Below are positions 2,450 through 24,545 of a stretch of DNA of 64,000 bases, one piece after another. The position numbers were made by a program, and so were the translations under genes. The DNA lies in the NCBI RefSeq assembly GCF_002742335.1, contig NZ_MDGR01000007.1, positions 1,120,501 through 1,184,500 on the forward strand, written 5' to 3'. Origin of the DNA: Reichenbachiella sp. 5M10. GTDB taxonomy: Bacteria > Bacteroidota > Bacteroidia > Cytophagales > Cyclobacteriaceae. Below the pieces are notes generated by a model. That model saw only the letters and a program-made list of their open reading frames with translations. It had not been told where the DNA came from and did no database searches. Positions within the stretch are counted from its first letter, which is position 1, and each line of letters opens with the position of its first letter.

Positions 2450-2596
2450 TTTTCTAGTGTTTAGAGGAAGGGGTGTTCCATTCCCTGATTGAGGATACAA
2501 GGATATAATACTCAGAAGTGCCTTTGAGTGGAGTTTCGTTGGATGGCAGAAATCGAAGGGTGACCTGCATTTTAGAGCCTGTGCATATGATTTTGC

Positions 2597-3807: not shown

Positions 3808-5808
3808 ATGAACTTAAGTCTAGACTTGTTGTCATTATTATATGAACTGAGTCTCACCAACCTCAACTATAGGGATCCAGAGGATACCGCACGAAAATTC
3901 ATTCGAAAATTTCTTTCAAGAAAATCTCTACAATACGGTGCAGTATGGCGAATAAAAAAAGGGGACAATCAAAAAATTGTTTTTAGCAAGATCTATTCTA
4001 TGCCTAAAACCGAATGCCTCAGAGAGATTTCTCTCGAAACATTCAATGAAGCCTTTGCTACGGAGGAGTCTTTTTTTTGTGAGCATTCCTTGTTTGATGA
4101 TGTCACCTTGACAGGAAAGTACGGGTATTTTAAACTAAGAGAGTTTGGTCTTTTGGAATTGTTTAGTGACAATATCCCAGAGGAGGAGTTCAATTATAAG
4201 GCTTTCTACCCATTTAGTGATGTAATCAAACAGTTTGCAATAAGTCTTGAAAGTGGGTTTTCTTATCAAAATCTTCAGCAAGAAATAACCCAACGTCAAT
4301 TGGCAGAGGCACGAGTGATTGCCAACGAGAATAAATATCGAAGGATTATAGATAACATTGATTTGGGGTTGTTGGAAGTAGACAACAATGACTTGATTCA
4401 ACATGCAAATAAGTCCTTTCTTGAACAATTTGGGTACGAATGGCAAGAACTTGAAGGCAAGAAGGCTTCTGATATTTTTCTTGGAAGTAGTGACCGCAAA
4501 GCAATTCAGAAATTTTCAGAAGAACATCACCTAAGGGGACAAGGAGAATCAGGTTCTTATGAAGTCATGCTTCATGACAAGGAAGGCAATAAAAAGTGGG
4601 TGATTATCAGTGTTTCGCCAAACTACGATCAAAATGGTGAATTGATTGGCTCAATTGGTATCCACCTGGATATTAGTGATCAGAAGCAGTTAGAAGAAGA
4701 CAATCAGTTCAAAGACTATAGACTTGATAAATTGTTTCAAATGTCTCTGGACGCTTTGATCACTATAGATGAAGCAGGGCTAATCATAGAATGGAACCCT
4801 CAAGCCGAGGTGATCTTCGGTTATGCTTTTGAGGAAGTCAAGGGGAAGGGGTTGAGCGAGACGATTATCCCTATGCAACATCGTGAAGCTCACAATAGAG
4901 GGATGTCGCACTTTCACAAAACAGGAGAGGGACCGGTATTGAACAAGAGGATAGAGATTACAGGGTTGCATAAAAAAGGTCATGAATTTCCTATTGAGTT
5001 GACGGTTTTTCCTATTCCATTCAAAGACACACATTACATAAGCGCATTTGTACGAGATATTACAGAAGTAAAGAAAGGGCAAGCAACTCTAGAACGGAGT
5101 ATTGCTAGACAAAGAGAGCTAAACAATATGAAATCTCAATTTATATCCATGACCTCTCATGAGTTGCGTACACCGTTGACAACTATCCGATCCAATACCG
5201 AGCTGGCTTCCTTTCAGTTGATCAACAATGAGGATTTGAATAGAGAGAGGCTGCAAAAGAACATTACTCGAATCAATGACAATGTTGAGCGGCTAAATAC
5301 ATTGATAAATAACATATTGATTATCGGGCAAGTAGATTCTAATAAAGTACCCTTCAACCCAGAGAAGGTTCTTTTGTCAGTATACATCAAGGAAAGAGTA
5401 CTGGCCAACTTAGTTTATGACAGAGAACCAATTCAGTTTGCTATCAAGGGTACAGAATGTCCGGTGTTTGTGGATAAAAATTTGTTCTGGCATATTATGA
5501 GCAATCTATTGGAGAATGCTCTCAAGTATAGTCCAGAAGCAAAGAGTCCGAAGTTGTTAGTGGATTTTGAAGCACCTAATGTCGTCAAGATCCATGTTGA
5601 GGATTTTGGTATGGGTATTCCTGAGGATGAAGTGGAAAAATTGTTTGATTCTTTCTTTAGAGCTTCCAATGTAGGGAATATTCAAGGCTCTGGTCTTGGT
5701 CTGGCCATTGTGCATGAGTTTATCAAACTACACGAGGGTACGATAAATGTAGAAAGCAAGTTAAATAAGGGTACAATATTCACTATATTAATACCTAAAA
5801 CAACCTAA
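3808..5808 (+). CDS. PAS-PAS sensor histidine kinase
   Basis: Soluble hybrid-free histidine kinase of 666 residues. An N-terminal domain of about 150 residues resembles the heme-nitric-oxide/GAF-like input region often paired with FIST but is not clearly assigned. Two PAS domains follow (about 175-295 and 300-425), then HisKA with the H-box SHELRTPL (phospho-acceptor His451), and an HATPase domain with N-box NLLENALKYSP, G1 DFGMGIP and G2 GSGLGLAIV. No membrane helix, so it senses a cytoplasmic signal, plausibly through the FIST protein encoded just upstream. Two bases separate it from the LytTR response regulator, its likely phosphorylation partner. Confidence 0.9.
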   Translation: MNLSLDLLSLLYELSLTNLNYRDPEDTARKFIRKFLSRKSLQYGAVWRIKKGDNQKIVFSKIYSMPKTECLREISLETFNEAFATEESFFCEHSLFDDVTLTGKYGYFKLREFGLLELFSDNIPEEEFNYKAFYPFSDVIKQFAISLESGFSYQNLQQEITQRQLAEARVIANENKYRRIIDNIDLGLLEVDNNDLIQHANKSFLEQFGYEWQELEGKKASDIFLGSSDRKAIQKFSEEHHLRGQGESGSYEVMLHDKEGNKKWVIISVSPNYDQNGELIGSIGIHLDISDQKQLEEDNQFKDYRLDKLFQMSLDALITIDEAGLIIEWNPQAEVIFGYAFEEVKGKGLSETIIPMQHREAHNRGMSHFHKTGEGPVLNKRIEITGLHKKGHEFPIELTVFPIPFKDTHYISAFVRDITEVKKGQATLERSIARQRELNNMKSQFISMTSHELRTPLTTIRSNTELASFQLINNEDLNRERLQKNITRINDNVERLNTLINNILIIGQVDSNKVPFNPEKVLLSVYIKERVLANLVYDREPIQFAIKGTECPVFVDKNLFWHIMSNLLENALKYSPEAKSPKLLVDFEAPNVVKIHVEDFGMGIPEDEVEKLFDSFFRASNVGNIQGSGLGLAIVHEFIKLHEGTINVESKLNKGTIFTILIPKTT

Positions 5809-5810
5809 AT

Positions 5811-6536
5811 ATGGATGCATACACTATATTGATTGTCGAGGATGACAGTCAAATCGCAGAATCACTATCAGAGATTCTAGAAATACTGAATCATAAAGTC
5901 GTCGGTATTGCCGAATCCTATGATCAAGCTATTGGCTTTTTAGAAAAGGAAGATATCGAACTTGTGTTGTTGGATATTCAACTCAAGGGGACAAAAAGTG
6001 GAATCGATGTGGCAGAGAAAATACGTTCTGATTTTAAAGTTCCATTCATTTTTACTACGGCTTTTGCTGACAAAGAGACCATCAAAAAGGCATCTACGCA
6101 TAGCCCTTATGGATACATTGTCAAGCCCTATGGCATCAAGGATATTAATGCTGGGATAGAAATAGCCATTGAAAATCACAAGAATTTTAAAAGCACCCAG
6201 TCCAGTGATGAAGGAGTGTTTAATAGGGAAAGTCTCTTTGTTAAGGCCAATTCACGGATAGTGAGAATCAATATTGATGATATTTTATTCATAGAAGCTA
6301 AAGGGGATTATGCGATTTTCAAGACAGAGGAGAAAGGATACATCGTACACACTACGTTCAAAAATGTAGAGAGTAGTCTGGATCCGGATCAGTTTGTTAA
6401 AGTCCATAGATCTTACATAGTCAATGTCAATAAGGTGGTCGACATAGAGGAGAATAATTTGTTGATCAAGGAGCAGGTCATTCCTATTTCTAGAGGTCAA
6501 CGAGCACATCTCCTTAGTAAACTTAATCCGATATAG
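5811..6536 (+). CDS. LytTR family response regulator
   Basis: Response regulator of 241 residues: receiver domain (about 5-120) with acidic pair ED near residue 11, phospho-acceptor Asp55 (LLDIQL) and Lys in IVKPYG, then a LytTR DNA-binding domain (about 140-238; RINIDDILFIEAKGDY, FVKVHRSYIVN). It is the output partner of the kinase directly upstream. Candidate LytTR direct repeats lie upstream of its own operon and upstream of the TPR/barrel gene, which suggests autoregulation and control of the polysaccharide locus. Its 3' end overlaps the convergent TPR/barrel gene by 14 bases. Confidence 0.93.
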   Translation: MDAYTILIVEDDSQIAESLSEILEILNHKVVGIAESYDQAIGFLEKEDIELVLLDIQLKGTKSGIDVAEKIRSDFKVPFIFTTAFADKETIKKASTHSPYGYIVKPYGIKDINAGIEIAIENHKNFKSTQSSDEGVFNRESLFVKANSRIVRINIDDILFIEAKGDYAIFKTEEKGYIVHTTFKNVESSLDPDQFVKVHRSYIVNVNKVVDIEENNLLIKEQVIPISRGQRAHLLSKLNPI

Positions 6537-8610
6537 TAGAAGATGATATCTTTTTAAAGAAGAGGGGCTTGTGAGTCAATCTGAAAGTGAGCTGTGCTCG
6601 CAATTCTAAGTGAGAAAACCCGTTGTATTGAGAACTAGAGATGGAGCTATATGCTCCACTCATTTGAGCATTCAACCTGCCCATCGTCTTTGATAGTGTT
6701 AGTTGGGTTCTCCAAGTGGGTTGTTTCATGCTATCGACGATCTGATACCCACCAGCCAAGTCCCAGCTCAAATCAATCGGTAACTTGTCGTACATCAAAC
6801 CAGAAAATAACTCTACCTGATGGTATAAACTGGGCGAATAGTACTGCGCGGGTTTTGCCTCACCAAAACTCATGATCGTATAGTTGATACCCGCTTTTAT
6901 AGCTGGTTTTTTAGTAAGGCTTCTGTACACAGAGGTGAATAAAAGGTTTTTGGTATTCCCATCAGAAAAATAACTTCTGTATAGCTCAGAGTACCATCCC
7001 AGTTTTCTTTCTTTCCAAAAGAATGAGTTCTTGATCATAAAGTTGGAGACCTTCAGTTTTTGTTGAATTAATGCTTGATTAAAGTCTTGCACTTCGCTGA
7101 AGTACCCAATGGTCAGCGACTGAGATTTGGAAATTCTCAGCTGTGCTGACAGGCCCATCGTACTGCGGTAGTCTGCATTGGTCGTGTCGTTAAGCTGCAG
7201 CTTGGATAGGCCATAGACTGCTTGCAGTTTGATGGTCGCATTCAACTGGTGACTCAAAGAAATACTGCTACTCTCGGTATACGAGGTACTTGATTCGGTA
7301 TTCACTGAACTGTAGTATTTTTTTTGATGATCCATCGTAGCAGACCACCTTGGAGTGATGCTGATTTTTCCACCCAGTTGATAGCTTGTGGATACACTTC
7401 CGTCACTAGAGCGTGTATAGATGTACCCTACAAACGCATGAGGACTATGCTGTGCATTGAGCCGATTGATGAAATTGGCAGCATCTTTTTGTCCTGGGTA
7501 GTATGACAAAGTGCGAAACCCATATTGGTAGGCAGCATCATCTAAACCGAGCGCGTGCATAGCGTCTGCTTTACCAAGATTGCCACCAAAGGACCCTGGC
7601 ATGAGAGCCAAGTAGTCATCATATTTCATTGATCCTTTCTTGAAGTCTGCTGCGTACATCGCGATTTGAGCTTGGGTGACAAGTATCTCAGGACTAAAAG
7701 GTAGTACGGATGACAAGGAGTCTAAATAGTCATCTGCTTTTGAGATTTTCTCATTCCATAGCAGGGCAGTTACATAGTGGAGGTGGGCATCCATGATTTT
7801 GGCAGTGTCCTTTTGCATGGAAGCTTTGCTTACCAAAGAATCTGCTAGGCTCAAGGCCATCTCATTGTCTTCTAGCAAGTGGGCTGTGAGGGATTGACCT
7901 TTCAGAGAAACCAAGGTGTCCGAAAGATGAAGATATGTAGAGGATGAATCTTCAAATTTGCCTGCTACGAGATAGATGGTTGCTTTGAGTTGCAGCGACT
8001 CCTGATCACTGGGATTGAAAGCTATGTTTTTATTGATCATCACCAAGGCACTATCGTAGAGATGATTTTTGGATGCTAGTTCGTTGGCGAGTCCAAGCGT
8101 AATGTATTTTCTCGAAAGTGCAGCCTGCGGGCTGTCTGGATCAAGGTCGATCGCTGTTTGGATGGTTGAATAGGCAGAACCATAGTTTTGAGTCATCGAA
8201 TAGCTATTGGCCAAACCGAGTTGCGCGGCGAATAAGGTCGAATCTTCTTTTAGTATTGAAATGTAGTCAACAATAGCTGACTCGCCATCTTTTTTCCAAA
8301 GGTAGGCTTCAGCGAGATTCAGCCTGACTTCCATGTCACGGGGGTATTTGACCAAAAGCGCTTTAAAGATGGCAATGGCAGAATCGGGATTTCCTGATAG
8401 CCCTGTAGCACGCCCATAGCACAGTTTGGCTGTTTTGTTGTCGGGATAATCTATCAAGGTCTGTTGGAAGAATTTTTCAGCAGATTGGAATTGCCCAGCC
8501 TCTAGCATAGCAAAGCCAGCAGTCATCTCTTGACCATAGGTGTGTAATACTTGAGTAAATAAGAGAATGATTAATGCCACTTTGTGAGTGTTCGTGTTCC
8601 AGGTCTGCAT
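6523..8610 (-). CDS. TPR and YaiO-type outer membrane beta-barrel protein
   Basis: Exported protein of 695 residues. Signal peptide at the N-terminus (hydrophobic VALIILLFTQVLH, then TYGQ). Residues about 28-385 form successive tetratricopeptide repeats (for example AKLCYGRATG, VRLNLAEAYLW, AAQLGLANSYS, GNLGKADAMHALG). Residues about 388-685 have alternating beta strands like YaiO-family outer-membrane barrels. TPR followed by barrel is the plan of polysaccharide export porins such as PelB, BcsC and PgaA, though direct homology cannot be shown here. It sits head-to-head with the STAS/flippase operon and next to glycosyltransferases, so export of a polysaccharide is the likely role. A LytTR-like site lies in its upstream region. 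Confidence 0.75.
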   Translation of the reverse strand: MQTWNTNTHKVALIILLFTQVLHTYGQEMTAGFAMLEAGQFQSAEKFFQQTLIDYPDNKTAKLCYGRATGLSGNPDSAIAIFKALLVKYPRDMEVRLNLAEAYLWKKDGESAIVDYISILKEDSTLFAAQLGLANSYSMTQNYGSAYSTIQTAIDLDPDSPQAALSRKYITLGLANELASKNHLYDSALVMINKNIAFNPSDQESLQLKATIYLVAGKFEDSSSTYLHLSDTLVSLKGQSLTAHLLEDNEMALSLADSLVSKASMQKDTAKIMDAHLHYVTALLWNEKISKADDYLDSLSSVLPFSPEILVTQAQIAMYAADFKKGSMKYDDYLALMPGSFGGNLGKADAMHALGLDDAAYQYGFRTLSYYPGQKDAANFINRLNAQHSPHAFVGYIYTRSSDGSVSTSYQLGGKISITPRWSATMDHQKKYYSSVNTESSTSYTESSSISLSHQLNATIKLQAVYGLSKLQLNDTTNADYRSTMGLSAQLRISKSQSLTIGYFSEVQDFNQALIQQKLKVSNFMIKNSFFWKERKLGWYSELYRSYFSDGNTKNLLFTSVYRSLTKKPAIKAGINYTIMSFGEAKPAQYYSPSLYHQVELFSGLMYDKLPIDLSWDLAGGYQIVDSMKQPTWRTQLTLSKTMGRLNAQMSGAYSSISSSQYNGFSHLELRAQLTFRLTHKPLFFKKISSSTISD

Positions 8611-8667
8611 GGTGATCGTGATTTAATTGGTGATTCAAAAGTAAGATCTATAATAAGGTGAGGGAGG

Positions 8668-8705
8668 GAGTCTACGACGAAATGCAGGTATCATGGGTCG
8701 AATGG
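8668..8705 (-). promoter_or_regulatory. candidate LytTR-type operator pair
   Basis: Read on the minus strand, CCATTCGAC and CATTTCGTC are separated by 12 bases, a 21-bp period. The second half, running CATTTCGTCGTAGACTC, matches the site at 2638-2653 apart from one inserted base and one change. It lies between the divergent TPR/barrel gene and the STAS/flippase operon, and 58 bases upstream of the former. The resemblance to AlgR-type sites makes the neighbouring LytTR regulator the obvious candidate; this is inference. Confidence 0.45.
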
Positions 8706-8861
8706 TAAATCGGTGTGATTCATCTGTTTACCTGACTTAAATGACCACTGAATTGGTGAATCGTGCGCTCCATCTTTTCCTACCCGTGTAGCATCCTGGG
8801 AGTAGATACTTTTACTTCAAGTCTTCACAACGAGGACAAGCAATTTTAAACTTTAAGGACA

Positions 8862-9134
8862 ATGAAAATACAAATCACAGCAGGAGACGTCATGGAGCCA
8901 TCTAATTGGAAAGAACTTGTATCCATGGTCAGTAGCAGAGCAATCGATGCAAAAGAATTTAGAATCAATATGGAGAAATGTAAGAAAATTGATTTAGCCC
9001 AGTTCAATGCCTTAGTCATGCTCTATGTGAAACTTAGAAGACAGCATAGAGAAGTGAAGTATACCAACTGCTCTCATCCTTCTATTCAAAAGTTTATTCA
9101 AAAAACCCAGTTTGATCATGTATTTAGCAACTAA
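8862..9134 (+). CDS. STAS-like small protein
   Basis: Protein of 90 residues with the STAS fold pattern: a beta strand with KEFRINMEKCKKID, then a helix and C-terminal FIQKTQFDHVF, as in anti-sigma-factor antagonists. The position normally occupied by the phosphorylated serine (DSAG in SpoIIAA) reads DLAQ, so a phospho-switch is unlikely. Its end overlaps the start of the flippase gene by 17 bases, so the two are translated together. A role as a protein-interaction module tied to the polysaccharide machinery is inferred. Assignment to STAS is by pattern only. Confidence 0.7.
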   Translation: MKIQITAGDVMEPSNWKELVSMVSSRAIDAKEFRINMEKCKKIDLAQFNALVMLYVKLRRQHREVKYTNCSHPSIQKFIQKTQFDHVFSN

Positions 9135-10362
9135 ATCACTCTCAAAATCAGTACAGTTTAGAGCGTATTTTACGCCAGTAAGAGTATTCTTGATTAGTAC
9201 AATGATTGTCAATGGCGGCAACTATCTCTATAATTTGGTACTAGGTAGAGTATTGACACCTGCACAGTTTTCGGAGGCAGGGATTTTGGTCACACTGCTG
9301 TTGGCATTTTCTTTTTTGGCGATGACTTTTCAGATCGTCTCTGCCAAGTTTAGCATCGAACTGGATGGAGTAGATCAGATCGCTTTCAGGCAATGGGTCA
9401 GCAAAATCAGCCTATATGCTGGCGGGGTACTGTCATTTGGGATGATGCTCGGGAGTGGATTTATTTCAGACTACTTTCATATAGATGACATATGGGCATT
9501 GCTTGTGTTCTCTTTGGCTTTACCGCTTTATTTCCTGATGAGTGTGAAGAGAGGGTTTATGCAAGGGAAGGAGAAATTCATAGAACTATCGACTTCTTAT
9601 CAAGCTGAAATGTGGGTTAGGCTGTTGATGACTTTTGCCCTTATTTTTTCGTTGGGGGGAGAATCTACTACTTGGGTGTCTATTGCTATTGTGGCTTCCG
9701 TTTTGGTAGGGTATAAGAGCATGGGTAGGACTTCTACGGTAGTGATGGATACGGTTCGGTTTGATAAGTCACAATTGGTGTGGCGATTTTTCCTCTTGAC
9801 GGCTGCTTATGAGTGCGCGCAGATTATAATAAATTACAGTGACATCTTCATGGTCAAGCACTATTTTGACAGCCATCAAGCAGGTCTTTATACGTCTATG
9901 GCTTTGATTGGCCGCATGATTTATTTCGTCACCTGGATGGTCGTGATGATTCTGATTCCACGTATTGTAAAGCTTCGCAAAGAAGGTAAGGCATTTAAGT
10001 CACAATTGTTACAGTACATCATCGTGATCTCAGCTTTCTCTGTGGGCATAGCTGCTATTGCTTTTTTCTTTCCAGACTTGATTGTGTTGACTTTGTTTGG
10101 AGAGGCATATTTAAGCATAGCTCCTTATCTCTGGCTCTATGCTTTTGCCACGATGCTCTTTGCTCTATCCAATGTGTTTGTCTATTATTTCCTGTCGATA
10201 GATCAGTATTTGCCTGTGTATATTGCCATTTTTATGGGACTTTTGCAGGTACTTCTCATCTACTTTTTTCATGATAGTTTGATCCAAATTATCTATGTAC
10301 AGATTGTCAACCTGAGTATTTTGTTGTTCATTCAGGGGATGTTTTTTGTCAGCAAGGCCTAG
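9118..10362 (+). CDS. Wzx-type polysaccharide flippase
   Basis: Integral membrane protein of about 414 residues with roughly a dozen hydrophobic helices of the MATE/MVF oligosaccharide flippase superfamily. The N-terminus (TMIVNGGNYLYNLVLGRVLTPAQFSE) is typical of Wzx and PelG-like transporters, and a later helix runs YSDIFMVKHYF. I prefer the ATG at 9118; a TTG at 9112 would add two residues. It would move lipid-linked or nascent glycan across the inner membrane. Co-translated with the STAS-like gene; it ends 8 bases before the convergent GT4 gene. Confidence 0.85.
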   Translation: MYLATKSLSKSVQFRAYFTPVRVFLISTMIVNGGNYLYNLVLGRVLTPAQFSEAGILVTLLLAFSFLAMTFQIVSAKFSIELDGVDQIAFRQWVSKISLYAGGVLSFGMMLGSGFISDYFHIDDIWALLVFSLALPLYFLMSVKRGFMQGKEKFIELSTSYQAEMWVRLLMTFALIFSLGGESTTWVSIAIVASVLVGYKSMGRTSTVVMDTVRFDKSQLVWRFFLLTAAYECAQIIINYSDIFMVKHYFDSHQAGLYTSMALIGRMIYFVTWMVVMILIPRIVKLRKEGKAFKSQLLQYIIVISAFSVGIAAIAFFFPDLIVLTLFGEAYLSIAPYLWLYAFATMLFALSNVFVYYFLSIDQYLPVYIAIFMGLLQVLLIYFFHDSLIQIIYVQIVNLSILLFIQGMFFVSKA

Positions 10363-10370
10363 TAGATAGA

Positions 10371-11555
10371 CTAGTGCCTTGTCAATAGTTTGTCCATATG
10401 GATCAAATACCAATCAGCAATGTCCGCCATGCTCAAAGAGGCCGCAGCTCGGAAATTTGCTCGTTCCAATTGGTTGCGATATTCGTCATCTATCAATAAG
10501 CGTTCGATAGCTTTTGCTAGGCTTTCGACATTTTCCGGTTCAAAGAATTCCCCTCGGTATCCTTCCTCCTCGACCAATAGAGCTAGGTCTCCAAGGTTAG
10601 GTAAAATGGCTGCTTTGCCATAGCTGCCCGCCTGATGCAAGACGCCAGAGCTACCAGTAGTGGAAGTGTAAGGAAAAACAACAACTGTCGATGATTTGAA
10701 TATTCGAGGTACATCTTCCTCTTCTACATATCCGCTAAATACCATGTCAGGCACCTCTTTGTATTTTTCCTGGACTCCTTTGAGGTAACCGGCTACATTT
10801 GGGTTGTCAGTACCTGCTACTACGAGTTCTATGGGCATATCTACTCTTTTTCTGACTTCTACAATGGCCTCTATCAGTACCTCTACTTTTTTGTATGTAC
10901 CAAACTTGCCAAACGTCATGACTTGACGTGGTCCCTCTGGGATACTGTAGTCTGGAATAGGAGGTACTTCAAATGATCCATGAGGCAGCAATACGATGTT
11001 GTTTTTTTTGTATTTAGCTTTCAATACGTCAACATATTTCTCAATTGTGACACCTACTAGATTCGAAGTTAAAATAAATCGTGTGAGGATGTTTCCTATC
11101 AGACCGTAAGCCCATTTCAAAATCGGGTTAGAGGTTAACCCTGCCTTGGTTAGGTCTACTTCTTCCATGATGTTGTGCAGTAGGACGATGTTTTTGTAAC
11201 CAAACAATCTCAATAAGCCTGGGAGCATCAACCCCAAAGCAGCAGCTACTTTTTTGTCACCAAATAATAGGAATTGCAAATTGATGATTACTACGTCTGG
11301 TTTGTGTTTTCGAACCTGCTTTAGAATAGAAAAGGCATTGTTCATGCTGTTGAATTGCCAACATGGAATGAATTGTAGTTTGTCACTGTCTGTTTCATAT
11401 TCTTGATTGTCAGTTAGATGTTCCACATACAATTGAATTTCTGTCACTTCCTCTTTCTCATGGAAATGTCGAGTGAGATGAAAGCCATATTCATTGAGTG
11501 TCGTCTTGCTAGGTGGATAGGCAGATACCATTCCAATTTTCAGTTGATTTATCAT
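10371..11555 (-). CDS. family 4 glycosyltransferase (GT-B)
   Basis: Cytoplasmic GT-B fold enzyme of 394 residues. The N-terminal domain begins IGMVSAYPPSKTTLNEYG; the C-terminal domain has MTFGKFGTYKKVEVLIEA and VFPYTSTTGSSG, the nucleotide-sugar site. The usual EX7E acid pair near the second glycine turn is not present: the segment reads SGVLHQAGSYGKAAI. This occurs in some GT4 subfamilies but is worth noting. Last gene of a four-gene operon; its ATG overlaps the stop of the glycosidase gene by 4 bases. Likely adds a sugar to the polysaccharide made by this locus. Confidence 0.85.
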   Translation of the reverse strand: MINQLKIGMVSAYPPSKTTLNEYGFHLTRHFHEKEEVTEIQLYVEHLTDNQEYETDSDKLQFIPCWQFNSMNNAFSILKQVRKHKPDVVIINLQFLLFGDKKVAAALGLMLPGLLRLFGYKNIVLLHNIMEEVDLTKAGLTSNPILKWAYGLIGNILTRFILTSNLVGVTIEKYVDVLKAKYKKNNIVLLPHGSFEVPPIPDYSIPEGPRQVMTFGKFGTYKKVEVLIEAIVEVRKRVDMPIELVVAGTDNPNVAGYLKGVQEKYKEVPDMVFSGYVEEEDVPRIFKSSTVVVFPYTSTTGSSGVLHQAGSYGKAAILPNLGDLALLVEEEGYRGEFFEPENVESLAKAIERLLIDDEYRNQLERANFRAAASLSMADIADWYLIHMDKLLTRH

Positions 11556-13126
11556 TTTGTTTCGTTTAGATGATTTTGAATAATGGAATAAGTTTTTTTC
11601 TTATTCCCTTTGGTGTCGATTATTCCATAAGCCTTTTGAGGTGCCCTTTGCCAGGGCCATTTACCTGCGACGTTGGCAGGGACCGACGAAAAGTCATAAA
11701 GTGTCCATGTGGCAAAGTGCAAACCCAGAGTGGTGGATTCGGATAGAATGTTTTGGTAATAATTGGCTTGGTCTTCGGGACTATTGCTCCAGGGGTACCA
11801 AAATGCAGAAAAGCTGTGTTTTCCTACCTCACCAAGAAATAGTGGCTTGGATACCTCCATACTATCTCGCAAAGCGGCTACTCGTCCAGCCAATTGTCCT
11901 GTTTTTTCATAGTAGTGGAAAGAGACAAAGTCCAACTCATCGGCAAGGTGGTGTGCTCGTTCTGGTACTGACCAGCCTACTGTGGTCACAGCATGTGGGT
12001 CATAGGTTTTGATTCTTCTATTGATAAAAAAGAGCCAGTCTAGTACTACTTGTTTGCCTTTCGTGTCAAAGTCTAGGTCTGGTTCGTTTTTCAGGTCCCA
12101 AGCCAAGAGGGCAGGATGGTTCTTTAGTCGTATCACGATTTTTTCTGCATGACGATCAGAGAGGCTCCAGTCTACTACGTCATACCCTAGGAAAAAGTCG
12201 AAAAGCGTCACGATGACTTTTAGACCGTGACGGTCTATCTTGTCCATGAGGTCTTGTAGGTGATCTAGATGCTGCCCTGAAGTACCAGGATCACTGAACT
12301 CTCCGTATGGCACGAATATCCTTAGTGTATTAAACCCTAGGTTTTGGATCAGTGTGAAATCCGAATCGAAATCGATCGAGGTATAATTGAGCCACATTTC
12401 TTGCCAGGGATACTGTTGTGGATAGTAGTTGATGCCCTGGATATGAAACGGTTCGCCCTCTACTAGTAGCTCTAGGTCTTTGACTTTTTGGCTCTGATTG
12501 GAGGGGGAGGAGACTTTGTTTTGGTTGGACAATGGCTGACTCACTTTGTGGCGAATACGCCAATGATTGTCTTCTAAGAGGAGCATTACTTGGTACTGGG
12601 AGGTATCATAGAAGGAGATTTCGGGTTGATCCAGTTGTCTGATTTTATGAAAACTGACTACACGATCTTCCAAGGTAGCCACTGTGCCATCTTGAGAATA
12701 AAATTTAAGCTCAACCTCATGGGAGATGGTGGTTGCATCCAGCATTTTTTTGTCTTCAATGAATTGCGTAAGTAGAGGCAACAGTTTCGCCCTAAACTGC
12801 TCGGTGAAATAATCATTTAGCCCTTGACTTTCTCGTTTTTTGAATGCTTGAAACTGATAAAAGTAGGACGCTAAATAGTCTTTCCCCATTTTGATTTGAG
12901 CATAGGGCTCAAAAATTCGACCTTCATTCTGTCCTACGTTGACCCACTGAATTTTGGGTTGGTAGAAGTGATTGATATGGTGAGAATCCAATAGCAACAT
13001 GTCACTGCGCTCGGCACCTGTTTTGAAAAACGTAAGGAACTGTGATGCACCATAGAAGAATAGGAATAGAATGACCACAAAACTGGTTGACATGTATATG
13101 ATCGATAGTTTCTTGGAATTTCTCAT
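11552..13126 (-). CDS. membrane-anchored GH5-like glycoside hydrolase
   Basis: Protein of 524 residues. One N-terminal membrane helix (about 8-30) anchors it with the rest outside. Residues about 45-200 form an accessory domain (ends EDNHWRIRHKV) that recalls NTF2-like folds. Residues about 218-515 are a clan-A TIM barrel: INYYP start, LGFNTLRIFVPYG, acid/base Glu348 in WDLKNEPD, FHYYE, and nucleophile Glu433 in FLGEVG. This fits GH5 and relatives (GH39-like PslG is another possibility). Glycosidases inside polysaccharide operons (PelA, PslG, BcsZ) trim or release the nascent chain. It overlaps both neighbours by 4 bases. Confidence 0.82.
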   Translation of the reverse strand: MRNSKKLSIIYMSTSFVVILFLFFYGASQFLTFFKTGAERSDMLLLDSHHINHFYQPKIQWVNVGQNEGRIFEPYAQIKMGKDYLASYFYQFQAFKKRESQGLNDYFTEQFRAKLLPLLTQFIEDKKMLDATTISHEVELKFYSQDGTVATLEDRVVSFHKIRQLDQPEISFYDTSQYQVMLLLEDNHWRIRHKVSQPLSNQNKVSSPSNQSQKVKDLELLVEGEPFHIQGINYYPQQYPWQEMWLNYTSIDFDSDFTLIQNLGFNTLRIFVPYGEFSDPGTSGQHLDHLQDLMDKIDRHGLKVIVTLFDFFLGYDVVDWSLSDRHAEKIVIRLKNHPALLAWDLKNEPDLDFDTKGKQVVLDWLFFINRRIKTYDPHAVTTVGWSVPERAHHLADELDFVSFHYYEKTGQLAGRVAALRDSMEVSKPLFLGEVGKHSFSAFWYPWSNSPEDQANYYQNILSESTTLGLHFATWTLYDFSSVPANVAGKWPWQRAPQKAYGIIDTKGNKKKTYSIIQNHLNETK

Positions 13127-14298
13127 CGTTCTATTGCTATGGTTGTGCTTAGTTGGCTCAAGCTGATGGTGGCTTTGTAGTCACCTGGTTTCATGTCCAA
13201 TGGCCATGTGAGGTGGGCGTACCCTGATTTGATCGGGGAAGAGGTCTCGTAGTGGTAATTTTCTCCTTTTAGAACCATTTTTATATTGATTCCATCCTTC
13301 ACTTGCTGATTCATAAAACTGAGTACTGGACCTACGATGATTCCATGATCATTTTGTGATACTGGTAATGATCTGATCGCTTGTTTGAAGTGGAGCTGAG
13401 CGCTCTGTCCTGTAGCGTATCCAGGTATGCTAGAGTGGAGTATCCATGTGGTGGAGTCAAGTGGCGCAGGTAGGCTGACTTGGGCTACTCCGGATATGGT
13501 CTGGCCAATCAACTGAGCATTGAGTTGCCCAGTAGTGTCATAAATGTAGAAATAGACAGCTGTACCGTTTTCAATTGTATTGTTTTTATCGTCTTCTATT
13601 TTGCTTGTTTCAAGATATATGATTTGGTTGCCATCTGCAAAGTCATGCTCTCTAGATATTTTCAGTCGGTAGTCAACGGGATCATTGCTGTAGTAGCTGA
13701 GTCTAAACTCTTTGGATCCGACCTGTCCTTTTTTGACAGAGACTGAGCCCGTGCCAATGGTTTGAGGGGAGTATACTCTTTTGTAGGCGACCAAACTATT
13801 CATAGATATGGCATAGGTGGAGATGTGATGTGAATGTAAGTATTCTATTTCCAATGGGCTATTGTCCGGATATGGGTTGTCATATTCATCAAGTAGTGAG
13901 GCTGTAATCATTGCAAAGTCTGTTTTGTTTACGATCAAGTGTTTTGGCCCACAGTAGGCCTCTATGCTTACTTCAGCCTTTTGATCTGCCATGATTTGAG
14001 TCTCTCCCTTCCATACCATTTGTTTTCCGGCCAGCAGTTTTATTTTGATCAATCCTGCTATCAGGCTGATGTTTTGAGGTAGTGCGAATGTCACTTTCTT
14101 TGATGCTACTTGCCCTTCTACTGTTTCGACTCCATAGGCATAGATGAGAAGCATTTTGTCTGGCAAATCCGTGCCAAGACAAGTAAGTGTGACGGTTTCA
14201 CCAGCGGTATAGCTTGGCTCTAGATTCACCTCTAATTCGGGTTGAGCCTGCAGGGCTAGAGAATACAAAAATGACAGGGTCAGTAGATAATGTCTCAT
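13123..14298 (-). CDS. secreted Ig-like beta-sandwich protein of unknown function
   Basis: Secreted protein of 391 residues; start set at MRHYLL, where a signal peptide (LSFLYSLALQAQ) follows and the gene lies one base after the preceding stop. No membrane helix beyond the signal. The sequence is beta-rich with two or three Ig/invasin-like modules (for example SYTAGETVTLTCLG at the N-terminus and DYKATISLSQL at the end). I recognise no catalytic motif. Translational coupling to the large membrane protein before it and the glycosidase after it suggests a periplasmic or surface part of the polysaccharide apparatus. Confidence 0.7.
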   Translation of the reverse strand: MRHYLLTLSFLYSLALQAQPELEVNLEPSYTAGETVTLTCLGTDLPDKMLLIYAYGVETVEGQVASKKVTFALPQNISLIAGLIKIKLLAGKQMVWKGETQIMADQKAEVSIEAYCGPKHLIVNKTDFAMITASLLDEYDNPYPDNSPLEIEYLHSHHISTYAISMNSLVAYKRVYSPQTIGTGSVSVKKGQVGSKEFRLSYYSNDPVDYRLKISREHDFADGNQIIYLETSKIEDDKNNTIENGTAVYFYIYDTTGQLNAQLIGQTISGVAQVSLPAPLDSTTWILHSSIPGYATGQSAQLHFKQAIRSLPVSQNDHGIIVGPVLSFMNQQVKDGINIKMVLKGENYHYETSSPIKSGYAHLTWPLDMKPGDYKATISLSQLSTTIAIER

Positions 14299-14299
14299 A

Positions 14300-17200
14300 T
14301 TAGAATGGTCCAGGGCTACCAACAAAATTGTTGAGGTTAATCATTACGAATCTACATTGTTCTCCTGGGTAAGGAGTGAGTTGAAATAGAGGAACAGGAT
14401 GTTTTGACTCATATTTGGACACTATGCCGTCATTGTCTAGGCCGTTGACTTGTAAGATGGCTTGTGACTGCAAAGGGATTAGTTCCAGACTATCTAGTGA
14501 GAGGTTTCGACTATGGAAATTTGCATACTTCATCGGGAACACACTCTTTTCTGCGAGAGAGGTTGTTACCCATTGTATTTGTTGATCCTGATCAAAGAAA
14601 GAATACACCAGTTCGGTAATCGTGGAAGTAAGGTGACCATAGTTATAGAGTCGTCCAGAGATTTGCTCTTTATCGATATGCAAGTCTTGCGTAGCAATAC
14701 TCTTGTACAAGTCTTGAACGATGACAGTTCCTAATACCTCGAGTTTGAAAGTAGCCGGGGTAGGCATATGGGAGAGAGAATCTAGTTGCAGTTCGTTCCA
14801 AGCCACTGCCTCAAAGTCGATACGGAAGGCAGTCATCTCCTTGGGGAGCAGTTTGTGTGTCAAGTGGAATTTGTCATAATAACTTGTAAGTACTTGCTGA
14901 TTTTGCCCGAGAAGAGTTGCCTTGACTGTGAGGTCCGCGGGGTAACTGTCTACATTCTGAATCAAGCCGACTATGTGATACTCTTCTCCTTTTTTGACCA
15001 TATTGGCTTGTACGATACGTAGAACAGGCCTGTCAAGTACGTCCTCGTGGAAAGTTTCCTTGGTAGTGATTTTGCGTCGGCCCTGATTATGAAAACTCAC
15101 TTCTGGGACATCTGAGAACTGATCGGCGGGGATATAGTTATTGAATTCTGTGGCTTTGATGTACCATTTTATACCTCGTTTTATGACTTCATGAATTTGC
15201 GTTTTGTGATAGCTTTCGAGTGGTGTGATCCACTCCAATTGTGTCTCTATCATGGCGTATTCTGAGGTGGATGTCAATACCTTCGTATGGATTGAATTGA
15301 TTTTTCCATAGGAATCGACGATTCCATCGGTTACTGAAGTTTCCAAGAGAAAAAAGTCCAGCGTCAGGCTGTCGGCGGGATCTATATATGAGTGCGCTTC
15401 GTCGAACCTTTTAAAGTCTAATGCATCGTAGTAGGATTGTACGACACGTTCTGGATCAATTTGTTTGGCATTCATGAGGTAGATTTTTGCCACTAGAACC
15501 AATGAGAGCAGGATGATCATTAGCAGCCAGTACTTGATGGTATAGTAAAAGATCGGACGGATTTTGCGCAGTGTTTCTTGATTGCGATAGTCATCGTCTA
15601 ATTTTTTTGATCCAGAGACATGATGTATCCAATGGAGCTGGACATTGAAGAAAAATGCAATGAGAAGTGTACATAGTGGCACTATTCCCCACATGATTTT
15701 TTGGAATCTAGGAATGTCTTTCTTAGGTAAAACCGCAGGTAGAGCAGAGACGTCCGACCTTTCCCAAACTGTGATGCCGTTGCTGAGGGATTTGATTCTC
15801 AACCAACCCGAAAAGTAAAGTAGGGGGTCATAGAATTTGTCATTAGAAAAGACATACTTGAGGTGAAAGGTTTCTGGCGAACTGAGGAACTGCTGTAGGG
15901 TGGCAATTCCTTCGACTCCTCGGTATTTGGAGTTTTCTAATCTTTCGATGGCACGAGTGGTTAGCTCAGGTACACGTCGGGCAGAGTGGTAGTTGCCATC
16001 TATGGTCAGTGCATCTGTATTGGCAGACAGCCAAGCCATTTGGTCTCCAAAGCCGAGCGTTAAATAGCGCCATTTGTAATGTTTGTCACTCTGAAGGAAG
16101 TTCTGAATAGGTTTTAGATTAATTGTTTCTGGTTGTAGCGGGCGAAAAAAGCTGAGATTCATCGTGAAGCCAGCACTGAAAAACATGCTGATAATCACAA
16201 TAAAGAGGTAAACCGAGTGAACTGCTTTTGATTTTTTCTGTATGATTTGCTCATAAAGATCCCCTTTGGAAAACTGCCAAAGGAACTCCCCTGCCATGGG
16301 CATCGCATATATAGTGGCCCAAAAGGTGAAGCGCTCCAAGGTTAGGATATTGAATGCATTTTCACCCAATAGCATCTTAGGAATAGGAGTGGTGCCTCCT
16401 GTACCCAATAAAGTAAGCATGGCAAAGGACAACCCCAAGAAGATGTTTCGCTTAGAAAAATAGCGATAAAAGCAATAGGGCCAGATCATCAACAAGAACC
16501 CCCAGGGTATGATAAAAAAGACCAAGCCCGAACTGAATACTTCGGTGAAGTTGTCACGTGATCCATGCGGTATAGGTACCTGTGTGATAGGGTCGCTTTT
16601 GGACCAAATCCAATATGGTAAGATGACAACCATGGCTACTACTATAGTCATGAACCCAAAGAAGATGACGCGGGGTAGATACTTTTTTACATATTTGATA
16701 AAGAGAAGAATGCCTACTTTTTCGTAGCTCCCAACTTCACGTCTGGCACCATCCATGACTGCTGTACCCATGAGCGGTACTACGAAAAATACCATCCCAA
16801 AAATAGGTGTCACGTGATGTGAACAGACAGCAACAGCGATCAGACTCATGCCATTGAAGAAATATCGAAATTTCCCATAGCGTACGTAGAGGTAAATCTC
16901 AGGCAAAGCGTGCAATAGCCAGCTGATTCCCATCATCATAGGAATCTGTCCAAATACATGAAAGGCTTCTACCACACTGGGTAGAAACACAGCGATAAGA
17001 GCGGCATAGGCAGCTGATTCATCATTGGCGGTGATGAGTTTGGCAAAACGGTAGGCCCCAGTGACGTACAAGACTACAATCGCGAATGCAAGTAAAAAAG
17101 CTGCGAACTTGAGCCCTCCAATAAAAGAGAGTAGAGCCATCAGTTGGTGGGTCAAAGGAGGGTAACTGATCAGACTGAATCCGGTATACCAGCTAGGCTC

Positions 17201-17365
17201 CCATGGATCAAACCAAGATTGGCGGTAGTGATCACCAAAGAAGATATGGACATAAATATCATAGGTGCCTTCTAGTGTGCTAAAAAAGGATGCCCCATGA
17301 AAGATTAATCCAATAGCCACTGCAAGCGCCAGTATATTGTATGTCTGTCTTTTGTCGTCGATCAT
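14300..17365 (-). CDS. large GT-C-like membrane protein with periplasmic C-terminal half
   Basis: Protein of 1021 residues and the first gene of the minus-strand operon. Residues about 10-415 hold about ten membrane helices; an acidic first outer loop (GTYDIYVHIFFGDHY) and the YTGF/SYPPLTH segment recall GT-C glycosyltransferases and the 6-pyruvoyl-tetrahydropterin-synthase-related membrane family. Residues about 430-540 are an exterior domain, followed by helices near 555-575 and 605-630. About 635-760 looks NTF2/SnoaL-like (VVQSYYDALDFKRFDEAH), then beta-rich domains to the end. It may polymerise or transfer sugars from a lipid carrier. Function is inferred from topology and context only. 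Confidence 0.65.
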   Translation of the reverse strand: MIDDKRQTYNILALAVAIGLIFHGASFFSTLEGTYDIYVHIFFGDHYRQSWFDPWEPSWYTGFSLISYPPLTHQLMALLSFIGGLKFAAFLLAFAIVVLYVTGAYRFAKLITANDESAAYAALIAVFLPSVVEAFHVFGQIPMMMGISWLLHALPEIYLYVRYGKFRYFFNGMSLIAVAVCSHHVTPIFGMVFFVVPLMGTAVMDGARREVGSYEKVGILLFIKYVKKYLPRVIFFGFMTIVVAMVVILPYWIWSKSDPITQVPIPHGSRDNFTEVFSSGLVFFIIPWGFLLMIWPYCFYRYFSKRNIFLGLSFAMLTLLGTGGTTPIPKMLLGENAFNILTLERFTFWATIYAMPMAGEFLWQFSKGDLYEQIIQKKSKAVHSVYLFIVIISMFFSAGFTMNLSFFRPLQPETINLKPIQNFLQSDKHYKWRYLTLGFGDQMAWLSANTDALTIDGNYHSARRVPELTTRAIERLENSKYRGVEGIATLQQFLSSPETFHLKYVFSNDKFYDPLLYFSGWLRIKSLSNGITVWERSDVSALPAVLPKKDIPRFQKIMWGIVPLCTLLIAFFFNVQLHWIHHVSGSKKLDDDYRNQETLRKIRPIFYYTIKYWLLMIILLSLVLVAKIYLMNAKQIDPERVVQSYYDALDFKRFDEAHSYIDPADSLTLDFFLLETSVTDGIVDSYGKINSIHTKVLTSTSEYAMIETQLEWITPLESYHKTQIHEVIKRGIKWYIKATEFNNYIPADQFSDVPEVSFHNQGRRKITTKETFHEDVLDRPVLRIVQANMVKKGEEYHIVGLIQNVDSYPADLTVKATLLGQNQQVLTSYYDKFHLTHKLLPKEMTAFRIDFEAVAWNELQLDSLSHMPTPATFKLEVLGTVIVQDLYKSIATQDLHIDKEQISGRLYNYGHLTSTITELVYSFFDQDQQIQWVTTSLAEKSVFPMKYANFHSRNLSLDSLELIPLQSQAILQVNGLDNDGIVSKYESKHPVPLFQLTPYPGEQCRFVMINLNNFVGSPGPF

Positions 17366-17580
17366 ATCACGAAGATGGTACGTTTGACCTGTCTCTTATT
17401 AGCATTGTTGGTCCAACTGAATCAAACAAGTGTCGAATGTGTGTTTTTTCTAAAAACACTACTCAACTATCAAAATCTGCTAGTCATCATATGATTTCGG
17501 TATCTCGACTTTAAATGAAATAGTGTGGTCTGAAATCCCGCAATATTTGTGATGTAATCATTTGATAAATAAAAGATACT

Positions 17581-18366
17581 ATGAAACACGGAATCGTAAT
17601 ACCATGCTACAATGAATCTTCAAGATTAGATCTAAATACATTCATTGAATTTGCCAAAAAGCATCATGATGTCACACTTTGCTTTGTCAACGACGGTAGT
17701 GGCGATCCTACTCGATCAACCTTGGCCGGTATCAAAAACCTTGTTCACGAAAATGTTCATGTCTTCAACGTAGAACAAAATGCGGGAAAAGCCAATGCGG
17801 TAAGACAAGGAGCGTTGTTCTTGCACGAAGAAACAGAAGTTGAAACGATTGGTTTTTTGGACGCTGATCTGTCCACTTCATTTCAGGAGTATGGTGATCT
17901 GATTCATGAAATGGAGAAATCAAAAGGGGTTATAAAAATAGTCTTTGGATCAAGAAATATGAATGATGGCTCTAATGAGATTGAGAGGAACCCTATTAGA
18001 AAATTCGTTAGTGATATGATCAGAATCCTGATATATATGATTACTCGTCTAAGGATTGCGGATACTCAATGTGGAGCAAAGGTTTTTCATAGGGACCTAA
18101 TCCATATGATTTATGACAAATCTTTCTTTTCACGATGGTTATTTGATGTCGAAATCTTGTTGAGACTCAAGAAGAAAATGGGGAAAACTTCTTTTTTAGG
18201 GATTTTCATGGAGAAACCACTTAAGACATGGGTGCACATGGAGGGATCAAAATTGAGTGTCAAGGATTCCATAATGATACCTTGGAACCTGATTAAAATT
18301 TGGTTGGAGTACGAATTCAAACCAGTATTCCAACCGAAGGAGAAAGCTGTCAGCAGCAATAGTTGA
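17581..18366 (+). CDS. family 2 glycosyltransferase, dolichyl-phosphate glucosyltransferase-like
   Basis: Enzyme of 261 residues with a GT-A fold starting at GIVIPCYNESSRL, nucleotide-binding FVNDGSGD, NAGKANAVRQG, and metal-binding LDADLS near residue 98. The later block DTQCGAKVF and the overall length fit prokaryotic relatives of dolichyl-phosphate beta-glucosyltransferase, which make polyprenyl-phosphate sugars. No C-terminal membrane helix pair is evident. Such a product would be the natural donor for a GT-C enzyme like the one encoded divergently at 14300-17365, so the two may form a pair. It closes the polysaccharide region on the right. Confidence 0.85.
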   Translation: MKHGIVIPCYNESSRLDLNTFIEFAKKHHDVTLCFVNDGSGDPTRSTLAGIKNLVHENVHVFNVEQNAGKANAVRQGALFLHEETEVETIGFLDADLSTSFQEYGDLIHEMEKSKGVIKIVFGSRNMNDGSNEIERNPIRKFVSDMIRILIYMITRLRIADTQCGAKVFHRDLIHMIYDKSFFSRWLFDVEILLRLKKKMGKTSFLGIFMEKPLKTWVHMEGSKLSVKDSIMIPWNLIKIWLEYEFKPVFQPKEKAVSSNS

Positions 18367-18437: not shown

Positions 18438-18842
18438 CTAAAAGTACTTGTCTATGATATCAGACAACATTTCCTTGGTGAGCGGTTTGGTATGGTGCTC
18501 TGACGCACGGGTTGTGGAGCGGGTTCTATTGATGTCATCGGGATTGTTCGAGGTAGTGAGTATGATGAGGACCATGTGATGACTGCTCGAAGGAGTAGTT
18601 TTATCATACTCTTCCAAGAACTCCCACCCGGTCATTCCGGGCATGTTAATATCCAAAAATACCAAATCTGGACTGACCTGATTTTTTTGCTCATGAGTCT
18701 TCATATAATCTAGAGCTTCTTGTCCGCTTTGGAAAACAATCACTTGATTGGCGCATTCACTTTTGTTGATGACACGCTTATGAAAGAAATTGTCATCAGG
18801 GTTGTCATCGATTAGCATGATGCAGTTTACTTTCTTAGCCAT
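18438..18842 (-). CDS. single-domain response regulator
   Basis: Receiver-only regulator of 134 residues; start set at [10 protein letters not shown], giving an 8-base overlap with the kinase stop. Acidic pair DD (IDDNPDDN), phospho-acceptor Asp64 (FLDINMPG), a Thr in ILTTS and a Lys in HTKPLT complete the active site. There is no output domain, so it probably acts through protein contact or as a phosphate relay partner of the kinase encoded immediately upstream. A Rcp1/CheY-like role is the usual reading for this subfamily. Confidence 0.9.
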
Positions 18843-20307
18843 GAGTGATACGTGGTATGGTGAAATAAAAGATACTGCCTTCACCTTCTTTGGACTCGAC
18901 CCAAATCCGGCCTTCGTGCAGTTCTACTATTTTTTTGCAATGAGCTAAACCTAATCCATGACCTTCGTACTTTCCTTTGGGGTTGAGGGTTTGAAAGATG
19001 AAGAAGATTCGTTCAAAATTTCTTTTGGGTATCCCGATTCCATTGTCCTGGAATTGAAATTCGTAGTAGTCTTTTCTTTTTAGGCAAGAGATCTTGATTT
19101 TGGGTATATCTGTTTTTTTTCTAAACTTTATCGCATTGGTAATGAGGTTTTGAAAAAGCTGCCTCAGATCCACATCAAACCCAATGAGAGTGGGGAGCGG
19201 ATCATTTAACGTGATATCGGCCTCTGTTTTTTGAATCAGGTCATTAAGGTCACTGCGCACCATTTTCATGATTTCCGAACAATTTACTTTTGTCATTTGT
19301 CTATCTCCCGTACCGATTCGAGAGTAGTCGAGCAGTGCTTTGACTAAAATCACCATGCGATCTGTGGCCTTGCCGATCGTCTCTAGATAGCGCATAGCCT
19401 CTGCGTCCATACTTTCGAGACAGTCTTCCTGAATCACTTGTATATAATTATTGATTGTACGCAGTGGTTCTTGTAGGTCATGGGAGGCTATGTAGGCAAA
19501 CTGCTCTAATTCCTCATTTTTAGCCACCATCTCTTTTACTATTGCTTGGTTCTTCTCTTGGATCTTTCGCTCGGTGATGTCAATGATAGAGGCAAGTACC
19601 ATCTCACCTTCATCGGTATTGATAGGATTGAGTCCTATCTCAATTTGCACCTCTTTTTTGTCCTTCCTCAAGCCAAAAAGTTCACGACCTGCTCCCATTT
19701 TTCGTGTACTGGGCGCTTCAAAATATCCCGTTCTATCGCTGGGGTGCTTGCCTGCGAAACGTATTGGAATAAGCATTTCTATTCTGTTTCCAATCAGTTC
19801 TTTTTTGGAATACCCAAATAGCTGTTCAGTTTGGGCGTTGACTAGAGTGATCACCCCTTTCTGATTGACTAGAATCATGGCGTTGGGTGCAGACTCTACG
19901 ACCAGCTTGAATCGCTCTTCGGCCTTTTTGCGCTCAGTGATGTCAATGATGGAGGCCAATACCAAAGTGCCCTCTGTAGTCACCAATGGGTTCAATCCAA
20001 TCTCTACTGGAAACTCGGATTTATCTTTGCGCAGAGCATAGAGATCTCTCCCAGCTCCCATAGACCTGACAGTAGGCGAAGCAAAAAACATGTTTCTAAA
20101 ACGGGGATGGTTTTCGTGAAACCGGGGAGGGATGAGGGTTTCTATCAATTGTCCAATCAACTCCGTACGGTCGTACCCAAACAGCTGTTCGGATGGTTTG
20201 TTGAGATAAGCGATTTTTCCCTCTTTATTGATCAAAACGATCGCATTAGGGGTAGACTCGATCATGAGCTGAAAAGTCAGCTCCGAATGAATAGTTTTTT
20301 CTTCCAT
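18835..20307 (-). CDS. tandem-PAS histidine kinase, phytochrome-type HisKA
   Basis: Soluble kinase of 490 residues. Two PAS domains (about 13-125 and 133-246) are recent duplicates of each other: both carry PNA(I/M), EQLFGY, MGAGR(D/E)L, LRKDK and [12 protein letters not shown]. The HisKA box is [10 protein letters not shown] with phospho-acceptor His276, followed by an HATPase domain ([27 protein letters not shown]). This kinase class usually pairs with Rcp1-like single-domain regulators, as here, where the genes overlap. No transmembrane segment. Signal unknown. Confidence 0.9.
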
Positions 20308-24533: not shown

Positions 24534-24545
24534 CCGAGAAGAAAC

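Follow-up and report, generated by a model that had tools for sequence, protein, structure and literature searches.

Cyclic di-GMP (c-di-GMP) gates those exopolysaccharide exporters that have been studied best. Here we analysed a locus of Reichenbachiella sp. 5M10 (genome G000) within a stretch of 64,000 nt (contig NZ_MDGR01000007.1, positions 1,120,501 to 1,184,500), hereafter the window. The locus encodes two glycosyltransferases (GT4 and GT2), a GH5-like glycosidase, an Ig-like protein, a 1021-residue membrane protein, a flippase and a TPR protein, together with signalling proteins. Judging from sequence, we consider it rather probable that its products assemble and export a surface polysaccharide under the control of a heme/nitric oxide (NO) phosphorelay, with phosphorylation acting both on a glycosyltransferase and on transcription. 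This reading is based on the gene content, the recurring neighbourhood, the fusion of a receiver domain to GT2 (REC-GT2), the linkage to H-NOX genes and the absence of GGDEF domains from 20 genomes carrying the locus.

PMC7112194 names five synthase-dependent polymers, and no word beginning with Bacteroid-, Flavobacteri- or Cytophag- occurs in its main text. The present locus resembles the Pel, poly-N-acetylglucosamine (PNAG-Pga) and cellulose (Bcs) systems in having a TPR protein with a strand-rich end and an operon glycosidase, and resembles Pel also in its MOP protein and GT4. It differs from the synthase-dependent systems by the absence of a PelG match and of GGDEF in the 20 carriers, and it adds GT2, the 1021-residue membrane protein, the Ig-like protein and receiver/STAS-like control. 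With the Wzx/Wzy pathways it shares a MOP flippase (Polysacc_synt_3) and soluble glycosyltransferases, but it has the TPR/strand-rich protein instead; the profile check of the window's locus proteins gave the flippase match but none to Wzy, Wzc, OPX or initiating-transferase models among the proteins scanned. The three-component glycosylation systems (GtrB/CsbB, GtrA and GtrC/YfhO) likewise combine a polyprenyl-phosphate-type GT2 with a large, possibly GT-C, membrane protein, and the locus differs from them by its MOP flippase, GT4, GH5-like enzyme and candidate TPR exporter. On the signalling side, the H-NOX/NosP phosphorelays of Gammaproteobacteria are alike in H-NOX, a FIST-type sensor, kinases, Hpt and response regulators. 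Their outputs as given in PMC8738867 include c-di-GMP enzymes, quorum sensing, iron-uptake genes and the syp regulon, and in V. fischeri H-NOX controls exopolysaccharide genes through an Hpt domain (PMC8738867). In contrast to these phosphorelays, no GGDEF was found here and the pathway glycosyltransferase often bears a receiver.

The genes of the window's locus are listed below with their window coordinates.

38..2500, minus strand: secreted DUF4114 protein (Pfam DUF4114, 5.7e-19) with a type A sorting tail of the type IX secretion system (T9SS; Por_Secre_tail), candidate surface or matrix partner
2714..3799, plus strand: FIST-domain sensor, distant NosP relative (Pfam FIST and FIST_C; 332 bits against the FIST hidden Markov model (HMM) of the module)
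3808..5808, plus strand: PAS-PAS sensor histidine kinase (Pfam), 8 bases from the FIST gene
5811..6536, plus strand: LytTR response regulator (Pfam), convergent with the TPR gene and overlapping it by 14 bases
6523..8610, minus strand: TPR protein (Pfam TPR) with strand-rich C-terminus, predicted periplasmic/outer-membrane exporter
8862..9134, plus strand: STAS-like protein of 90 residues upstream of the flippase gene, a weak match (PF01740, E 0.0065, below the Pfam cut-off)
9112..10362, plus strand: MOP-type (Wzx-like) flippase (Polysacc_synt_3, 1.1e-8), with an in-frame ATG at 9118
10371..11555, minus strand: GT4 glycosyltransferase (Glycos_transf_1, 1.8e-19), no transmembrane segment seen
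11552..13126, minus strand: GH5-like glycosidase (Cellulase/GH5, PF00150, 2.3e-8) with one N-terminal hydrophobic segment
13123..14325 (13123-14298 from the ATG start), minus strand: Ig-like protein, probably secreted (Invasin_D3 and Big_1 in the family)
14300..17365, minus strand: polytopic membrane protein of 1021 residues with a long C-terminal soluble part, candidate GT-C glycosyltransferase/polymerase (weak PTPS_related match)
17581..18366, plus strand: GT2 (Glycos_transf_2, 4.3e-15), candidate polyprenyl-phosphate sugar synthase
18438..18884, minus strand: stand-alone receiver protein (Response_reg, 4.9e-16) adjoining the unfused GT2
18835..20307, minus strand: PAS-PAS histidine kinase (Pfam), overlapping the receiver gene by 50 bases

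An initial annotation had proposed an uncharacterised exopolysaccharide synthesis and export system between 6523 and 18366. The genes it named are present as open reading frames (ORFs) where it placed them, and Pfam backs the TPR, Polysacc_synt_3, GT4, GH5 and GT2 assignments. It also described a tightly packed main operon. The 4-base overlaps between the GT4 and GH5 genes and between the GH5 and Ig genes are there, as is the 1-base gap between the Ig gene and the 1021-residue gene when the former starts at its in-frame ATG. However, the packed operon comprises only the four minus-strand genes (GT4, GH5-like, Ig-like and 1021-residue), while GT2, the TPR gene and the STAS-flippase pair lie outside it as units of their own.

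The 1021-residue protein, single-copy in the window's genome, was searched for in overlapping samples of the class (395 genomes), the order (194), the family of genome G392 (249) and the phylum (296). The G392 family is probably Flavobacteriaceae, as inferred from the named match L002, a Tenacibaculum. Carriers numbered 7, 3, 66 and 10, respectively, the window's own genome being included in the class, order and phylum counts, and the 66 carriers of the family sample belong to 63 genera. In these searches and in those for REC-GT2, the best 2-7 candidates per genome were scored, and absences are bounded accordingly. Neighbourhoods were compared in 20 stretches fetched around homologues of the 1021-residue protein, with L002 as the 21st. 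GT4, GH5-like, Ig-like and GT2 genes accompany the 1021-residue gene in 20/21 of them, including L050 (genome G535), whose GH5 and Ig copies are short or weak and were excluded from the GH5 and Ig alignments. The exception is L058 (G766), a stretch with a 302-residue fragment of the 1021-residue gene and no other core gene, which was excluded from all alignments. Such co-occurrence argues against chance grouping. The locus is a real, co-conserved gene set, and the observation behind the initial annotation is confirmed.

Gene order is constant but for L060, in which REC-GT2 has moved, and L050, which has an inserted pyrophosphorylase gene. The GT4 and GH5 genes run in the same direction in the window, L048 and L050 and in opposite directions in most other loci. 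The flippase gene occurs in the same stretch in 17/21 and the TPR gene in 13/21, and another six genomes have TPR genes in additional stretches (L074, L075, L081, L082, L086 and L087). By whole-genome profile search, the flippase family is present in 19 of 20 carriers and was not found in G535; in G118, the flippase and TPR genes are on a different contig from the core. GT2 and the 1021-residue gene occur together in all 20 full-length loci. Broken remnants of the 1021-residue gene are seen at L058:7347-8255 (G766) and at G651:C598, and the G766 stretch without the other core genes suggests that the locus has been lost in some lineages. A recent transfer from Flavobacteriaceae is unsupported, since the window groups with G535, G118 and G547 in the trees of the 1021-residue protein and GT4 (support 1.0 and 0.93). 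In the reduced locus of G535, a GDP-mannose pyrophosphorylase gene (L050:10880-11965) stands between the 1021-residue gene and GT2. This hints at mannose as a substrate in that lineage; mannose was rejected as a substrate of the locus generally, because such a gene was found inside one locus only.

The comparison of loci revealed two features that the initial annotation had missed and that are the most interesting part: the REC-GT2 fusion (50/66 carriers) and the linkage to H-NOX (59/66). Pfam detects an N-terminal CheY-like receiver in all four long GT2 proteins scanned (L043, L045, L052 and L055), and the long, fused form accounts for 16 of 23 aligned GT2 rows. The 249 genomes were surveyed for REC-GT2 at E 1e-50, with the best 7 candidates per genome scored. 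The fusion was found in the 50 carriers mentioned; of the others, 15 encode GT2 solely in the unfused form, and G766, with its fragment of the 1021-residue gene, encodes neither form. Fusions are among the matches listed in 3 of 183 non-carriers. The fused gene lies no more than 1 kb from the 1021-residue gene in 40 of the 50 carriers, 3-6 kb away in seven and on another contig in three. The phospho-acceptor Asp, the Ser and the Lys of the receiver are kept in 16/16 fused rows and the second acidic-pocket Asp in 14/16, the two exceptions being second copies of tandem pairs; against the Protein Data Bank (PDB), the REC-GT2 profile matched receiver domains at E 1e-15. The tandem pairs lie at L002:7407-9800 and L044:5245-7638, and their second copies carry His for the second pocket Asp and retain the phospho-acceptor Asp. 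At L060:6426-7376 (G647:C14:25877-26836), a degenerate REC-GT2 with in-frame stops occupies the usual site beside the 1021-residue gene, and an intact REC-GT2 sits between the flippase and TPR genes. REC-GT2 relatives also occur in L093, L094 and L095, from genomes (G649, G685 and G689) that gave no match for the 1021-residue gene; those of G649 and G685 have an H-NOX gene, part of a module with FIST, about 10-14 kb away.

Many carriers have an operon beyond the TPR gene, the H-NOX module; in L069, Pfam finds in it a receiver, H-NOX (PF07700, 7.4e-39), a PAS kinase, FIST (3.3e-40), a kinase, Hpt (1.4e-4, just under its cut-off) and a LytTR regulator. The module varies among the carrier flanks, FIST being missing in some and H-NOX in G694. 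H-NOX was found in 18/20 carriers vs 2/20 chosen non-carriers, and among the 249 genomes in 59/66 carriers vs 33/183 non-carriers (Fisher p 2e-25, phylogeny ignored), or in 58 of the 64 carriers with an intact 1021-residue gene. H-NOX and the locus share a contig in 51 of the 59 genomes, and in 50 of these 51 they are 3.5-33.4 kb apart; G651, a carrier with broken pieces only, was entered as a single interval in the distance count. Of 18 H-NOX sequences checked, all have a candidate proximal His and 17 the YxSxR motif, which we take to be H-NOX motifs. In several genomes, a LytTR gene in the matching position also runs towards the TPR gene. The two signalling modules that the initial annotation had placed on either side of the window's locus are both present; where it treated them as flanks, the comparison of loci indicates that in many genomes a related module is tied to the locus. 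At L072:5003-5493 (G547), two H-NOX genes enclose two short ORFs that each carry part of the FIST similarity. Meanwhile, a GGDEF search matched none of the 20 carrier genomes, and the control matched in 8/14 reference genomes. The earlier remark that the c-di-GMP subunits of Pel are lacking is therefore right, and the lack goes further than the locus.

GT4 homologues are 48-57% identical to the window's GT4, which matches general models (Glycos_transf_1 and Glyco_trans_1_4 in Pfam and weak GT4 models in NCBIfam); its profile gave no match in the PDB at a strict E 1e-12, which says little. Glu348 and Glu433 of the GH5-like protein are kept in 20/20 family members, and profile matches in the PDB (from 2.8e-11) include endoglucanases, mannanases, GH2 glucuronidases and GH158, so that the protein by its sequence has TIM-barrel homology plus the acid/base and nucleophile Glu. 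The DAD motif of GT2 is present in 23/23 aligned rows. The best-scoring model for the window's GT2, PgaC (1.1e-11), covers residues 5-98 only; PpgS (1.2e-9) and ArnC (6.4e-8) cover most of the domain, both below their cut-offs, and as a single sequence the protein had no PDB match at E 0.01. GT2 is thus a candidate polyprenyl-phosphate sugar synthase. The window's 1021-residue protein has 9 hydrophobic segments (the average over 21 homologues, with a lower threshold, gives 12), and Asp36, just past the first of them, is kept in 21/21. The family has no confident Pfam match and its profile found nothing useful in the PDB. For the GT-C-like label given by the initial annotation, the support is a sub-threshold PTPS_related match (E 0.0029; 3/21 members match at E 0.01), and PTPS_related remains unconfirmed as its home. 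Comparisons of the C-terminus of the 1021-residue protein with the N-terminus of the GH5-like protein and with the Ig protein gave no support for a common domain.

The TPR protein is predicted to be a periplasmic/outer-membrane exporter with a strand-rich end, its AlphaFold model having confident TPR helices to about residue 385 and low-confidence strands after that. PgaA model TIGR03939 matches all 14 homologues, the window's protein scoring 31 against a cut-off of 367. The flippase homologues match Polysacc_synt_3 in 12/18 cases; the flippase and Ig profiles found nothing useful in the PDB. At E 0.05, 19/20 Ig-like family members match Invasin_D3 and 13/20 Big_1. The STAS label of the initial annotation is in part borne out: small ORFs, some with STAS, hold the same place in other loci, and those of L045 (4e-9) and L056 (2.8e-5) pass the Pfam cut-off, but the window's own 90-residue protein does not, and an HMM built from its positional counterparts failed to find it. 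The same annotation had left out the T9SS/DUF4114 gene at 38-2500, whose homologues, searched with the sorting tail left out of the seed, lie near the locus in 11/24 genomes, the window included. The one homologue scanned with Pfam (L079) has the sorting tail only and no DUF4114; in G118 the homologue adjoins the flippase gene, though the flippase/TPR contig differs from the core contig. Residues ~550-740 of the DUF4114 protein resemble a jelly-roll carbohydrate-binding module by eye, with no Pfam match there.

Based on these assignments, a possible pathway can be outlined. GT2 would charge polyprenyl phosphate with a sugar, and GT4 would add sugars from nucleotide donors in the cytosol. The MOP flippase would carry the lipid-linked intermediates over the inner membrane, where the 1021-residue GT-C-like protein, with help from its C-terminal domains and from the Ig-like protein, would transfer or polymerise sugars on the periplasmic side. 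The membrane-anchored GH5-like enzyme might trim or edit the chain, the TPR/strand-rich protein would take it through the periplasm and outer membrane, and the T9SS-secreted DUF4114 protein may bind the product. For control, H-NOX and/or FIST sensors would modulate histidine kinases, which, via Hpt, would act on transcription by phosphorylating the LytTR regulator and on enzyme activity by phosphorylating the GT2-fused receiver. Sequence comparison leads us to infer the chemistry and the product, which way NO would act on synthesis, the phosphotransfer steps and, weakly, the GT-C assignment.

Several points weigh against a regulated export system of this kind. H-NOX is missing from seven of the 66 carriers, and phylogeny is not taken into account in the Fisher test; the H-NOX module also occurs without the locus in 33/183 genomes, and none of 14 stretches around H-NOX or REC-GT2 from 14 non-carriers contains the core set. 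FIST is near the locus in 7/22 genomes plus G778 and in pieces in G547, and with NosP model NF041558 (cut-off 450) the FIST proteins of L069 and the window score 59.9 and 20.6 bits. The fused gene is not adjacent to the 1021-residue gene in 10/50 carriers. The XrtA-type TPR, MamA and C39_PA2778 models match the same 14/14 TPR homologues, which makes the PgaA match unspecific, and hhalign of the TPR profile with E. coli PgaA and BcsC aligned the TPR repeats alone. The unspecific PgaA matches and the non-adjacent fusions lower our confidence slightly, both in this reading and in its more specific version given below. The GT-C label is weak: hhalign of the 1021-residue profile with one partial PTPS_related protein gave no match, and the structure model (mean pLDDT 31, two input sequences) is unusable. 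The absence of a known product or phenotype counts likewise, as does the state of the window itself: its left flank has no H-NOX, its first 40 kb no Hpt, its GT2 is unfused, and the genome's H-NOX, in which the YxSxR motif ends in K (the exception noted above), is unlinked, about 1 Mb away (C7:139 kb).

The window contains an incomplete variant of the regulated locus. On its left, FIST, kinase and LytTR genes hold the place of the module, with identities to module members of 24-27% for FIST and 40% for LytTR, the latter also to the L069 LytTR at the corresponding place. On its right, receiver and kinase genes adjoin GT2 on the opposite strand. The distant H-NOX gene lies beside receiver, kinase and LytTR genes, and this REC-H-NOX-kinase-LytTR module shows 65%, 51%, 35% and 61% identity to the L069 set. 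Further along, window 22248-25712 contains GH67 (alpha-glucuronidase-type) and UxuA mannonate dehydratase genes in a stretch whose GC content is above that of the locus; a region for glucuronoxylan utilisation may begin there.

The occurrence of the module without the locus, and of carriers without H-NOX, would also be expected if the polysaccharide locus were real but the H-NOX/FIST phosphorelay an independent neighbour, the GT2 receiver answering other kinases. H-NOX is far off or on another contig in G000, G118, G272 and G672 (contig ends limit G118 and G272), which fits this explanation too. We nevertheless regard it as unlikely, because 50 of the 51 same-contig pairs are less than 34 kb apart while the 66 carriers span 63 genera, several genomes have the LytTR gene convergent with the TPR gene in equivalent positions, and the receiver is fused into an enzyme of the pathway.

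In Pel, the GT4 protein PelF polymerises and the MOP protein PelG conducts the chain. A Pel-like synthase working in this way, in which GT2 and the 1021-residue protein merely decorate the chain from polyprenyl-phosphate sugars after the manner of GtrB/YfhO-type three-component glycosylation, would account for the TPR protein, MOP protein, GT4 and glycosidase, for the resemblance of GT2 to polyprenyl-phosphate sugar synthases and for the lack of Wzy, Wzc and OPX models among the matches of the locus proteins searched. However, the flippase family matches Polysacc_synt_3 and not PelG (PF16933), which hit 0/18 flippase homologues at E 0.01 and nothing in the window's genome at E 0.001, and GT4 matches general GT4 models. 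In addition, the pairing of GT2 with the 1021-residue gene is kept in all full-length loci, whereas G118 has its flippase and TPR genes off the core contig and G535 yielded no flippase match. Such a synthase is therefore distinctly unlikely. The PelG profile rules out membership of Pel itself, so the Pel core plan that the initial annotation saw here is an analogy; no PelD match by name was obtained among the locus proteins scanned, and PelF is left open, no model of that name being among the GT4 matches and the presence of such a model in the libraries not having been checked. Modification of surface proteins or lipopolysaccharide without a secreted polymer (as in protein O-glycosylation or in making a glycan that anchors T9SS cargo) is the least probable explanation, for although the T9SS cargo gene co-occurs in 11/24 genomes and a flippase, a polyprenyl-phosphate-type GT2 and a membrane transferase would equally form a glycosylation kit, the TPR/strand-rich protein (with its unspecific PgaA matches) and the membrane-anchored GH5-like enzyme point to export and editing of a polymer, and no O-antigen-ligase model was among the matches of the window proteins scanned.

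We therefore return to the phosphorelay-controlled export system. The initial annotation's interpretation is partly supported: the recurrent gene set and the GH5 Glu pair support its proposal of an undescribed polysaccharide synthesis and export locus, and none of the titles listed in the open-licence literature searched describes this locus. A more specific version, which we put forward tentatively and hold to be possible, is an undescribed class of exopolysaccharide machine of GGDEF-free Bacteroidota in which an NO phosphorelay of H-NOX/FIST, kinase and Hpt would turn synthesis on or off directly through phosphorylation of REC-GT2, replacing c-di-GMP as the post-translational switch. As far as our literature searches show, a receiver fused to a glycosyltransferase in genomes without detected GGDEF is a new element. 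With no GGDEF found in 20 carriers, a receiver fused to a pathway glycosyltransferase beside an NO-sensor phosphorelay would be a directly testable answer to how the synthesis of surface polymers is gated there. If it is true, NO biofilm signalling would reach into Bacteroidota along a path independent of the second messenger.

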